64,000 nt of DNA from positions 3,642,036 to 3,706,035 of the forward strand of contig NC_019683.1 of NCBI RefSeq assembly GCF_000316605.1. Reading direction: 5' to 3'. The translations under genes and the position numbers were made by a program. The notes below the pieces were generated by a model. It saw only the letters and a list, made by a program, of their open reading frames with translations, was not told the DNA's origin and searched no databases. The stretch comes from [Leptolyngbya] sp. PCC 7376 (lineage in GTDB: Bacteria; Cyanobacteriota; Cyanobacteriia; Cyanobacteriales; MRBY01). This document shows positions 5,381 through 58,462 of the stretch, one piece after another (the stretch's first letter is position 1; the number at the start of each line of letters is the position of its first letter).

Positions 5381-5422
5381 AAGAGAGTCCATAACTATAA
5401 AGTTTAGGCTCTCTTTTTTATT
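5381..5422 (+). terminator. Intrinsic terminator after psb28
   Basis: AAGAGAGTCC pairs with GGCTCTCTT across a 16-base loop, with one bulged base, and is followed by a run of six T. It lies 67 bases past the psb28 stop, in the right orientation. Confidence 0.75.
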
Positions 5423-5521
5423 GTCCGTCTTCTGCCACCAACAAAAACTATAAAGAATATATTCGTGCTTCAGATCGCTGATGGGTTAAAGATCTCTGAG
5501 GTCTCGGCGATCGCCAACTGA

Positions 5522-15823: not shown

Positions 15824-16770
15824 TAGCAGGCAAGGAGTGGGTTAAGACAGAATAGGATAGAAGCAATAAACATAGATGCCATGCCTGCTCCCCATAGTCT
15901 TGATTTACGCCTAAAAGCTGTTGCCGCCTTCGATAAAGGTGAACGAAAAAGTGATATCTGTCGCTTCTTTGGTATTAGCCGAAATACGCTAGACCTGTGG
16001 CTGAAACGACGAGAGAAAATCGGTTCAGTCGCTCCGAAGACAGATTACCGTCGAGGCCCTCAACCGAAGATTAATGATCTAGATGCTTTTCGTGCTTTTG
16101 CAGAGGAATATGGGCATCTAACCCAGAAGGAAATGGCGGAGAAATGGCCAGAGTCTATTAGTGATGCATCCAGACGTGAAGCTCTACGGAAAATTGAATT
16201 TACTCGAAAAAAAAGACCTATCGATATCAAGAGAGAGATAAAGAATTAGAAAAAGCATTTGTGGCACAACTGAAGCAGTATGTCCAAGAACGACTCGTAT
16301 ATATCGATGAAAGTGGATTTGATAATACCTTAGATTATGGGTATGGCTACTGCCATAAGTCAGAGAGGTTTATCGCAGAGAAGTTAGGTCATCGTACAGA
16401 ACGAGTTAGCGTGATTGGAGGATGGCGAGAGGGAGAGCAGATAGCACCGATGGTATTTGAGGGCTATGCCAACAGCGCCTTAGTTTGCCAATGGGTAGAG
16501 GATTGCTTAGTGCCAGAGTTGATTCCGGGTCAAATTATTATTCTGGATAATGCCAGTGTTCATCCAAAGGAAAGAATACAAACATTGGTGGCGAAGGCAG
16601 GATGTGAAGTGATATTTTTGCCACCCTACTCACCACACCTGAACAAGATAGAGAAGTTTTGGGGGAGGTTAAAGAAGGAGGTAAGTAAGCTCATCAAGAA
16701 GACTGAGGATTTGTTCGATGCCATCAGAATAGCCTTCTGTTCTATGTCCTAACCTTCTCCTTCGCTGCTA
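15824..16770 (+). mobile_element. IS630-family element, intact, inserted at TA
   Basis: The terminal inverted repeats are TAGCAGGCAAGGAGTGGGTT and, read inward from the right end, TAGCAGCGAAGGAGAAGGTT. The TA at 15822-15823 is duplicated at 16771-16772. The IS256 copy at 19902 preserves the empty site (GTAAATTAATT), so the insertion is exact. Length 947 bases. Confidence 0.92.
15881..16752 (+). CDS. IS630-family transposase (two frames, programmed -1 shift)
   Basis: The first frame (15881-16249, 122 residues) encodes the helix-turn-helix DNA-binding part (SDICRFFGISRNTLDLWLKR). It ends shortly after FTRKK, at a run of eight A (16207-16214). The second frame, entered by slipping one base back on the A run, continues as KKTYRYQERDKELEKAF and then the catalytic part from 16261. 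That part has YIDESGFD, IILDNASVHPK and PPYSPHLNKIEKFW, which carry the DDE residues. The fused product would be about 290 residues, the normal size. Slippage on A runs is how many IS630 elements express transposase, so this copy is probably functional. It belongs to a different subgroup from the two IS630 copies at 21.6-22.2 and 61.5-62.5 kb. Confidence 0.88.
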
Positions 16771-53232: not shown

Positions 53233-54299
53233 TCAACCATCCATAAACTGCTTACGTATAAATGGAGAAGTCATCGCCTTAAGTAGACTGCCATAATTGA
53301 GGCTAAAATTCACGGCATCCCCAACTTGTAAATTGTGTTCTTCACTATCAATAATTAGATGATCGCTGCTAGAACCCAAGATTTCTAAGCGGCTATCTAA
53401 GCTCAAACCAGAGACTAAAGTGTCTTGTCTTCCTAATGCAATGATCGATCTTTGATGTATACCTTGATCTTGAAAAGTTGGTACGTTGCCAAAAGCATCT
53501 CTGCAAATTTCACCAAAGGGCAAAGATGGCTTTTTTTTGATTCGATCACCTCAGCCACCAGCTGAAAAGCTTTAGTCTGTAAGCCTGGAATCACATTGCC
53601 ATAAACTGTTTCGCAACCTAATAAAATAGATTCGCCCAAACGCAGGTTATTAATTCTCCCTACATCTTGAGTCTCTTTATACCACTCATAGTTGGCGGAG
53701 TTTCCCCCTGAAATAATGCTTAAATTAATCTGAAATTCCTTTTCGAGTAGCTCAACTTGTTCTGATAGCCCATGCATATTTTGATCGTCTGGTTTAATGC
53801 CGCCATAGCAAGCCAAATTACAACCAATCCCCACAATTTTGATATGGCTTAACGTTAAAATTTCTCTGATAAATTTGGCTAGATCACAAGGCAGTATCCC
53901 TTCGCGGCGATCGCCCAACTCTACCATTAAAATTATCTGGTGAATCTTATTGTTTAAACCCGCATAATAGGCGATTTTTCTAATCGTTTCTAGCTCAGAA
54001 TTTAGACTAATATCGACAATTTCAACAATCAATTCTGCCTGACTGGGAGCCGTACGCAACAGCACAAAATCAGTCGATATACCCGCAGCCTTCATTTTTT
54101 GAATATTTTCAAGGCGAGAGTCAGCAATAAATTTAACCCCCCCTTGAATCATCGCTTCGATAATAGCGGGTTCCCCAAGGACAGCCTTAGAAACGCCCAT
54201 AATGGAAATACCCTGTGCCCCATAAAGATCTGCCAGAATCCGAGTATTATCCCGTATTTTGGATAGATCTATTTCCATCCTCGGCATAAATGGTTGCAT
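53233..54299 (-). pseudogene. PLP-dependent amino-acid racemase, frameshifted at an A8 tract
   Basis: The N-terminal part (54299 down to 53540) is MQPFMPRMEIDLSKIRDNTR, then ISIMGVSKAVLGEPAI with the PLP lysine, and ADSRLENIQKMKAAG. It also has LGCETVYGNVIPGLQTKAFQ. These fit the alanine-racemase-fold group COG3457 (ornithine-racemase-like). At eight A on the minus strand (53531-53538) the frame ends wrongly (ESKKSHLCPLV). With a ninth A it continues as KPSLPFGEICRDAFGNVPTF to 53233, including GRQDTLVSGLSLDSRLEILG, the C-terminal beta domain. The restored product would be about 355 residues. It lies 20 bases after the DUF1611 gene. Confidence 0.75.
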
Positions 54300-54319
54300 T
54301 TATTTGTTAGACAAATAGT

Positions 54320-55441
54320 CTACGCTTTTGCTAAAACACGTGTCTCTGGGAAATTTTCTGGCTTAATCTTTTGACTGAGTTTAGGGAAGTGAACGGCCAA
54401 TGCTTGAATCAGTTTTTTGCATCCGTAGCTCAATACATCCGTCGTCGGCAGGTTCAGCTGAGTCTCATATTGCTGGATCGTGCTCAAAATTTCTTCAATT
54501 GCCAGATTTTCATGACTTAAGGCGATCGCCAAAACCCTAGCACTAGAAATTGTCTCAATCAGCTGAATTTCGCTTTCAATAGTCGGCATCAATAAAGCCG
54601 GAAAATCACATCGAAACTCCCTAGCTGGTGGATGTTGCAGAATAATTCCATCCGGCATACTACCTTTCAAAATACCCAGAGAACTCATGAAAGCAGGGTG
54701 ACTTACAGCACTTTGACCCTCGACCAAAATGATGTCTGGCTTTTCTTGCTCGAATGCCTGAATCACAGCATTTTCGATTTCACCGATTACAAACTGCGAA
54801 ATTAGAGCGTCAATCGAAGCACCATAAATCGCTCCCTGCATCAGACTAGTCTGGCCCGTGGCGACGAACACGGACTTGATCCCAAGCCTATTTAAAGCAT
54901 TATTTAGCTCGACTGCGGTGGTCATTTTGCCACAAGCACAATCGGTTCCTAATATAGCGATGACTGGCACAGTAATTTCATAGATTCGCCCTGAAAAAAC
55001 ATGCAGATCTTTCACATTTGGTGATTTTCTGATGTCTTTAATTTGGACATTATTTTGGACAGCAGCGGCAACAAATTCTTGATCTTCAGAGAAAAATTCG
55101 TGGAGGCCATTAATTATATTCATACCATGTTCCATGGCTTCTAAAATCAAAAGTCTCTCGTCACTGGGAATGCAAACATCTAAAGGAGCTTTGCCATAAA
55201 TATAGCAGTGAGGAGTTTCTGACAGATGAGCTAAGGCGTCCTGAAAATCGGAAAAAATGGGAATATCACTTATTGCTTCGCCTAGGATTTCGCCTGCATC
55301 ATTACCTGCTGACAAGCTATCAATCACACCAACAATTGTATAAAGCTCTGAGTGTCGAACCAAGGCAGCTGCTGTTTTTCCGTCTACTAAACCGAATTGA
55401 TCTTGGCAGTAAATCAATGCCGTTTTTTTCGTGATTGTCAT
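54320..55441 (-). CDS. DUF1611 (DgcN-type) protein
   Basis: 373 residues (ATG 55441). The first 110 residues are a Rossmann-like domain (TAALVRHSELYTIVGVIDSL, RLLILEAMEHGMNIINGLHE). The second half has the P-loop-like AILGTDCACGKMTTAVELNN near 179, QTSLMQGAIYGASIDAL and the family signature LVEGQSAVSHPAFMSS near 262. DUF1611 proteins include DgcN, a D-glutamate N-acyltransferase, and are often paired with racemase or epimerase genes. Here the partner at 53233 is an alanine-racemase-fold protein in the same orientation, so the pair probably makes or consumes a D-amino-acid derivative. The exact substrate is inference. Confidence 0.82.
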   Translation of the reverse strand: MTITKKTALIYCQDQFGLVDGKTAAALVRHSELYTIVGVIDSLSAGNDAGEILGEAISDIPIFSDFQDALAHLSETPHCYIYGKAPLDVCIPSDERLLILEAMEHGMNIINGLHEFFSEDQEFVAAAVQNNVQIKDIRKSPNVKDLHVFSGRIYEITVPVIAILGTDCACGKMTTAVELNNALNRLGIKSVFVATGQTSLMQGAIYGASIDALISQFVIGEIENAVIQAFEQEKPDIILVEGQSAVSHPAFMSSLGILKGSMPDGIILQHPPAREFRCDFPALLMPTIESEIQLIETISSARVLAIALSHENLAIEEILSTIQQYETQLNLPTTDVLSYGCKKLIQALAVHFPKLSQKIKPENFPETRVLAKA

Positions 55442-55444
55442 CAA

Positions 55445-55975
55445 GTAATCTGCTCTTTAATAAATTATCACAAAAAATTCTTGAAAAGCTATTTTGAAAT
55501 CATCTCTCCTTTCTAAAACTTAATATTCTCAAGCATAAAAATATATATTATGTATTGAGATCTGATCTTTTTTATTATTTAGGATTTAATGAGAAAAAAT
55601 AATCATTCCTGTATAATCAGGCAGTTCTTAAGAGTAATTAGAATTCAAAAAATACCTTCATTAACAAAGCAAAAAATATTATTTCTTGTCAGGATTTAAT
55701 ATTGGCGTAATTAGATTGTAACGTAGAATACTTTTGGATGTTGTACTATCCAAAAAAATCACCCTAAAGTGGCATGTCAATTATTAGTAAATATAGTTTT
55801 TTCTCGATAATTCACCCTGACAATGGTATAAAGTTGTCTGAAAATATATTGCGTTGAAAAACAGATGGAATCAAGAGTGATCGCCGCCTGGTTTTGTAGG
55901 ATTACCCTAAAGCCATCCTTTACCAACAAAACTTTAGTGTTAAGTGACTAATCCCTGTGCGAAATTTCCCGCCTC
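55445..55975. other. AT-rich intergenic region upstream of ffh
   Basis: About 530 bases of AT-rich DNA with no recognised gene. It should hold the promoter of the DUF1611-racemase unit on the left. No SRP RNA (ffs) was recognised although ffh is next to it. Confidence 0.5.
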
Positions 55976-57667: not shown

Positions 57668-58462
57668 GGTAGTGATGCACAAGTAATGGTCATAACTGAA
57701 GAGAGAGATTATAGTGTCTGAGAAAATAGACCACTGCTCCAATGTGGTTTTCCCACTTCTTCGAGAAGGAAAGTGCCTGACGGACTAAGCGGGACGTTCT
57801 CTGACGTAGAGTGTTGTTGAATCTCTCAATATGATTTGTTTGTCCAGTCTCCTTGCCCACAACTCGATGACGTTTACTCGGTAAGACACAGCCATAGGCA
57901 TCCCAATAATCGGTGTAGACCAGCGCACACTGACGATACACAGGAGGCAGAGAATCCCATAATTGTTTCGCAGTCTTTTGACTACGGTCTCCGATGGCAT
58001 ATCCCACCACCTCTCGGGTGTCTCGGTCAAGAGCCAGCCAAATCCATGCTTTCTCACCTTTACTACCGACAAAAGACCACAATTCATCCATTTCGATGGT
58101 CAGTTGCCCTCTTTTTTTTGAGTCACAGGTAACTCGTGAGGCACAGTCTCTAATTTGGCATTGACATAGTACTGTAGCCAGCGCAGAGAGACCCCTGTGG
58201 CACGAGTGATACCAGCGAGAGAGAGACGTTCTAATAGGAGACGGTCAATCAATTGACGAGTGTCAGTTGCAATGGGAGGGTGGGCAGGATGTTCCACAAA
58301 CTGGCGACCACATTCATGGCAACGATAGCGCTGCTTTCCCGAATGGGTGTGACCATATTTAATGGTGCTGGGAGACTGACATTGAGGGCAAGTGAGCACG
58401 GTGAGACTTGACGTTTAATCTTGCCCCTATTCTTCCACAACCATTACTAGTGCACCACTACC
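57668..58462 (-). mobile_element. IS1-family element, complete
   Basis: 795 bases bounded by 23-base inverted repeats: GGTAGTGATGCACAAGTAAT (57668) and, inverted, GGTAGTGGTGCACTAGTAAT (58462), 21 of 23 matching. The flanks do not show an 8-9-base duplication, so one side may have been altered after insertion. It lies between ffh and the glycosyl-1-phosphate transferase gene. Confidence 0.9.
57690..58399 (-). CDS. IS1-family transposase (InsA and InsB frames)
   Basis: InsA part (58100-58399, GTG start): zinc-finger-like CPQCQSPSTIKYGH and YRCHECGRQF, and a helix-turn-helix LSLAGITRATGVSLRWLQYY. InsB part (57690-58091): MDELWSFVGSKGEKAWIWLA with the first catalytic aspartate, then YTDYWDAYGCVLPSKRHRVV and QTNHIERFNNTLRQRTSRLV. 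The two frames overlap at eight A before GAGGG on the minus strand, a standard IS1 slippery site, so a fused transposase can be made. All parts are present, so the element may be active. Confidence 0.88.

Follow-up and report, generated by a model that had tools for sequence, protein, structure and literature searches.

In the DgcN-DgcA pathway of D-glutamate catabolism, the N-acetyltransferase DgcN, a DUF1611 protein, acts together with DgcA, an N-acetyl-glutamate racemase of the enolase superfamily. The activity of DgcN is, to our knowledge, the one described activity of a DUF1611 protein. In cyanobacteria the canonical DUF1611 protein (2obn, Ava_3511) is likewise associated with an enolase-fold epimerase (MR_MLE), which adjoins it in 17 of 22 loci and is located upstream of the DUF1611 gene. 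The ornithine racemase Orr (NF040742), a PLP-dependent enzyme of the alanine/ornithine racemase family, represents another type of racemase, and the gene annotated as orr on an Ilyobacter plasmid has no annotated DUF1611 neighbour.

The window, i.e. the whole stretch of 64,000 nucleotides of [Leptolyngbya] sp. PCC 7376 analysed here, carries, according to ORF calls and Pfam matches, a two-gene unit on the minus strand, in which a DUF1611 gene is followed by the gene of a PLP-dependent racemase of the alanine racemase fold, with a gap of 20 bases (54300-54319) between the DUF1611 stop codon and the racemase ATG (Table 1). Coordinates and domain matches agree with the two-gene unit proposed in an earlier note on this DNA. 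The unit resembles the DgcN-DgcA system in that a DUF1611 protein of the same fold (7xrj) is encoded beside a racemase or epimerase, but its partner differs from DgcA in fold and chemistry. In contrast to the cyanobacterial epimerase loci, the racemase gene is located downstream of the DUF1611 gene. The pair is a variant on the theme of DUF1611 plus racemase.

Table 1. Features of the DUF1611-racemase locus in the window, and of the two related loci with a different gene in the DUF1611 position.
Feature	Position	Strand	Basis and remarks
DUF1611 protein, 373 aa	54320..55441	minus	ATG at 55441, stop at 54320, start position common to relatives; Pfam; Rossmann-like N domain and P-loop C domain (GTDCACGKMTT)
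PLP-dependent alanine-racemase-fold (COG3457/Orr-like) racemase gene	53233..54299	minus	ATG at 54299; frame broken near codon 253; Pfam, NCBIfam, relatives
Open frame before the break	53433..54299	minus	288 aa to its end at 53433; about 255 native residues (TIM barrel, Lys38), then out-of-frame residues
A8 tract (T8 on the plus strand) at the frame change	53531..53538	minus	one base fewer than in intact relative G005
Conserved C-terminal domain in the -1 frame	53233..53530	minus	GSSSDH, Y and AMTSPF all retained
NtcA-like palindrome GTATTCTACGTTAC	55718..55731	minus	290 bases upstream of the DUF1611 start; kept in several cyanobacterial lineages
Ddl-like ATP-grasp gene replacing DUF1611	L110: 4989-5996; L121: 4619-5605		

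The DUF1611 protein and the racemase

The DUF1611 protein was recognised by the Pfam models DUF1611_C (E=3.4e-64) and DUF1611_N (E=4.6e-20), scoring 216.4 and 72.2 bits against PF07755 and PF17396, respectively (cut-offs 25 and 22.6 bits). It is encoded by the sole DUF1611 gene of its genome; the canonical cyanobacterial version, which belongs to the same family with 30-35% identity and occurs in the same phylum, is absent from this genome. The structure was predicted with moderate confidence (pLDDT 78). It most closely matches the experimental structures of DUF1611 proteins, namely 2obn, 2g0t and DgcN (7xrj), with which the protein is thus predicted to share its fold.

The earlier suggestion of a DgcN-type enzyme found no support. 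The protein reached 147.5 bits against the DgcN equivalog model (NF041892), which has a cut-off of 480, and the adjacent gene encodes the alanine-racemase-fold PLP enzyme instead of an enolase-superfamily DgcA. As PLP racemases act on amino acids whose amino group is free, a DgcA-type conversion of an N-acetylated substrate is not available to the pair, and its chemistry is incompatible with a simple copy of the N-acetyl-D-glutamate/DgcA steps. In the literature collection searched, no paper on DUF1611 together with a racemase was retrieved.

The racemase matched the Pfam model Ala_racemase_N (E=8.1e-22), and its best NCBIfam match is Orr. The Orr model hits both halves of the racemase, with model positions 2-258 (E=5.9e-78) in the first frame and 256-350 (E=4.1e-32) in the second; this division over two adjoining frames indicates one gene split by a frame change. 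Intact close relatives match Orr over their full length and have the same fold, but they score 386-399 bits (386.3 bits for the intact racemase of the same genus), which is below the cut-off of 480, so that they are Orr-like rather than Orr; in the window the match is split. This family furthermore differs from Orr in its coupling to DUF1611.

The structural model of the intact same-genus racemase (G005, pLDDT 88) shows an alanine racemase fold, and its best matches are alanine racemases (TM up to 0.81 to Alr). A TIM barrel, a C-terminal beta domain and the PLP lysine, which define fold type III, are found in the models of intact relatives, while the product of the window lacks the C-terminal domain. 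Lys38 is invariant across the family alignment and presumably represents the PLP lysine. The catalytic Tyr265 of Alr appears not to be conserved, since an alignment by eye places F, W or S at this position, and catalysis may therefore differ in detail.

Distribution and partner genes of the pair

Among 60 cyanobacterial genomes, the racemase was present in all eight that encode this DUF1611 subfamily (69-100% identity), whereas none of the 52 others has a close one. It was detected in 13 of 386 cyanobacteria, seven of them picocyanobacteria, where in most pairs the DUF1611 gene overlaps the racemase gene by 4 bases. A scan of one genome per species yielded more than 550 related stretches, of which the best 80 were analysed. 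In 78 of these 80 the DUF1611 gene lies directly upstream of the racemase gene, although L087, which is counted among the 78, has an additional ORF of 482 codons between them; as the 80 loci were picked by their likeness to the cyanobacterial racemase, this proportion describes the present branch and not all Orr-like racemases. The pairs among the 80 loci are distributed over Cyanobacteriota, Nitrospinota, Bacillota, Bacteroidota, Thermodesulfobacteriota, Campylobacterota, Euryarchaeota and others, and plasmids of marine Vibrio, Phaeobacter and Ruegeria carry the pair with 4-base overlaps. The earlier reading of the pair as a cyanobacterial peculiarity is therefore not supported, as it is present in many bacterial phyla and some archaea. 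Protein distances of DUF1611 and racemase correlate with r=0.93, compared to at most 0.12 in 999 permutations. Judged from these sequence comparisons, the pair is a conserved, widespread and uncharacterised operon.

The operon variants suggest that the pair acts on D-amino acids, which may be basic. In 23 loci the racemase has a fused or neighbouring M15 peptidase of the D-Ala-D-Ala dipeptidase/carboxypeptidase type. In the two exceptions among the 80 loci (L110 and L121) a gene for a D-Ala-D-Ala-ligase-like ATP-grasp enzyme occupies exactly the DUF1611 slot; a search of both genomes with PF07755 detected no DUF1611 gene, both being MAGs that may be incomplete. Relatives of VanX/DdpX-type M15 dipeptidases and of the Ddl ligase hence serve as a third partner or as a replacement of DUF1611, but they form no part of the operon in the window and score below the VanX and DdpX cut-offs. 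Two plasmid loci, one of Shinella and one of Roseateles, encode a fusion of a related racemase with an arginase domain (checked in the Roseateles protein), adjoined by genes for a D-amino acid dehydrogenase and a 5-guanidino-2-oxopentanoate decarboxylase. DUF1611 is missing from these loci, so that their evidence is limited to the wider racemase family. One Sulfurimonas pair is preceded by a guanidino kinase gene 16 bases upstream. The M15 fusions and adjacencies, the Ddl-like enzyme and the arginase fusions are in line with the D-amino-acid theme proposed earlier. Given that the canonical cyanobacterial DUF1611 neighbours an enolase-fold epimerase, the racemases that accompany DUF1611 proteins belong to two unrelated folds.

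Several further observations concern the surroundings of the pair. Genes for GroES and/or GroEL were found within about 7 kb of it in about six lineages (L086, L106, L133-L144, L142, L210, L215), which by a rough estimate exceeds chance. SPFH/Band_7 or HflK-HflC genes occur near the pair in picocyanobacteria, Gomphosphaeria, Flavobacteriaceae, Vibrio and Ruegeria (L040/L089, L072-L076, L128, L129-L152, L131, L209, L219), and NhaA on one Vibrio plasmid. In L121 an octopine-dehydrogenase-like gene and a large gene are located upstream, and in L097 an insert of about 90 bases (5416-5508) interrupts the DUF1611 gene. Since the Ffh gene and the TPR gene of the window differ from the neighbours in relatives, no link to a dedicated neighbour is claimed. 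A phage origin of the pair found no support, as just two distant matches were obtained, both in unannotated records.

The frame break in the racemase gene

The frameshift described in the earlier note was confirmed by comparison with the same-genus relative G005, in which the racemase gene is intact (355 aa), whereas the window is one base short. Its placement exactly in the A8 run had to be corrected, however: the sequence reads GAA TCT AAAAAAAA G in G005 and GAA TC AAAAAAAA G in the window, so that both runs comprise eight A and the net change is one base missing at the 5' edge. Either the loss of a T or a silent T-to-A change (making A9) plus the loss of one A would account for this difference. 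The C-terminal domain of this fold helps to build the active site of the partner subunit. The break removes this domain, and the shortened product is therefore probably inactive as a racemase.

Downstream of the break the coding signal is not lost, as had been noted before. Between the window and G005, dN/dS amounts to 0.07 for DUF1611, 0.19 for the racemase before the break and about 0.09 (0.086) after it. One clear residue change was assigned to the lineage of the window before the break and two after it (two and four further changes, respectively, are unclear), and all family-invariant residues of the tail are retained. Since the gene shows no visible decay, the break is recent, is bypassed by slippage or represents a sequence error. 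We favour a recent mutation in the organism, although we give this reading only about an even chance.

The break is observed in the one assembly examined, which by itself cannot tell a mutation from a sequence error. An assembly or sequencing error in a gene that is intact in the organism would agree with the purifying selection on the tail, with the few amino acid changes and with the position at a homopolymer. To judge this, forty 20-kb samples of the genome were considered together with the window (864 kb), containing about 51 coding runs of at least eight A or T within open frames. Besides the racemase, frame switches at runs of eight were confined to repeated sequences, including two IS transposases (IS1-type and DDE_3-type), and single-copy genes broken at long runs were rare. 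As simulated deletions were picked up in nearly all A8 runs, frequent errors would have become visible. Taking furthermore into account that the simplest difference from G005 is a T lost beside an A-run of equal length, the sequence error considered in the earlier note, which finds support in the conserved tail and the homopolymer but not in an excess of such errors, appears possible but rather unlikely.

The repeated elements themselves deserve mention. In the window, two frames meet at A8G tracts in the IS1-type (57690-58399, minus strand) and the DDE_3-type (15827-16749, plus strand) transposases. About ten copies of the DDE_3-type element were found in the 864 kb, all requiring a -1 shift, and one A7 copy requires +1. 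A third repeated element (AGCCTC-A8-CATTCT) shows a +1 frame change in L165, L176, L193, L195 and L197. Another racemase frame break, near codon 108 (L154, 6318-6324), is located on a low-coverage MAG contig that is labelled Gracilibacteria yet cyanobacterial in sequence, and it is probably an assembly error.

The broken racemase might also be expressed by ribosomal or transcriptional -1 slippage on A_AAA_AAA, as the IS transposases of this genome appear to be. In the zero frame the tract reads TCA AAA AAA AGC, and a -1 slip would yield exactly the residues of the relative (ESKKKPSL). The two multi-copy IS types in which an A8G tract coincides with a -1 frame change and the tail without decay are consistent with this, as is a stem-loop around and after the tract, although the latter is modest (z=-2.2 against shuffles). 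Slippage on A-runs and frameshifting in the IS1 and IS630 families are documented (PMC5009743); however, A_AAA_AAG is more shift-prone than A_AAA_AAA in E. coli (PMC5009743), which counts against slippage here. Moreover, most of the racemase relatives examined have 3-5 A in the matching stretch, and the frame is kept in the few with long runs, which argues for neither a conserved slip site nor a conserved switch. Rescue by slippage thus seems quite improbable.

That the A8 tract acts as a switch by reversible phase variation, as envisaged in the earlier note, is far less probable still. A homopolymer inside a coding region with the intact frame one base away would suit it, but the tract is not conserved, the frames are intact where the position was found in relatives, and the long runs there arise from SKKKP codons, in keeping with an origin of the A-run from lysine codons. 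Eight A are furthermore short for a contingency locus, the intact G005 has as many, and an enzyme gene would be an unusual target.

Proposed function and possible nitrogen control

Upstream sequences hint at a control of the cyanobacterial pair by the nitrogen regulator NtcA. The GTAN8TAC sequence expected of the NtcA regulon is located at -277 to -301 from the DUF1611 start and is conserved across several lineages. It was present in eight of 21 cyanobacterial loci, which are not independent samples, compared to 0.74 expected; of 97 other genes at these loci six had one, and of 53 non-cyanobacterial pairs none. The lead had come from nine loci, two of which recur among the 21 (L081, L089), and the independent count is therefore 7/19. 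Since the site has no clear -10 box at the usual distance, it is a good lead rather than proof. Between the site and DUF1611, no conserved small ORF or known RNA was seen.

We tentatively explain the locus, with somewhat less than even confidence in all parts jointly, as a widespread operon of a D-amino-acid racemase and a conjugating DUF1611 enzyme that is probably controlled by NtcA in cyanobacteria and whose racemase was recently broken in this strain. The fold-type-III PLP racemase would convert a free amino acid between its L and D forms; this substrate may be basic (ornithine/arginine type), as suggested by the best match to Orr, the arginase fusion and the guanidino kinase neighbour. 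The DUF1611 P-loop enzyme would probably conjugate the D-amino acid by N-acylation or ligation, and in some lineages the conjugate would be cleaved again by the M15 dipeptidase. In the strain analysed here, the recent loss of one base presumably left the racemase without its C-terminal domain and probably inactive, and an occasional -1 slip on A_AAA_AAA would regenerate exactly the protein of the relative. That the widespread pathway makes a D-amino-acid conjugate (possibly of D-ornithine or D-arginine, perhaps as a stress solute), with DUF1611 doing the job of the Ddl-like enzyme and nitrogen control in cyanobacteria, is conceivable but on the unlikely side.

Alternatively, the pair may serve the salvage of D-amino acids: the dipeptidase would free them from conjugates or cell-wall fragments, the racemase would return the L form, and DUF1611 would feed catabolism in the manner of DgcN. 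The role of DgcN, the M15 fusions and adjacencies, the epimerase beside the canonical cyanobacterial DUF1611 and the occurrence of wider-family racemases in operons of D-amino-acid and arginine degradation point in this direction. However, a reversible PLP racemase acting on the free amino acid makes acetylation by DUF1611 unnecessary for the conversion from D to L, a ligase-like enzyme occupies the DUF1611 slot in the two exceptions, and no conserved dedicated uptake gene was found adjoining the pair among the loci compared. We consider salvage possible, albeit doubtful. Synthesis and salvage of a D-amino-acid conjugate may both be compatible with the data. The M15 fusion is as consistent with breakdown as it is with synthesis.

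The broken racemase copy is a minor, strain-level matter. Beyond the case of DgcN, the DUF1611 family is linked to a PLP racemase in a second partnership that extends across phyla, which provides testable clues to its function, and the lineages with a ligase-like replacement or a fused dipeptidase or arginase offer direct functional clues. For the cyanobacteria, the pair possibly adds a D-amino-acid branch to nitrogen metabolism.
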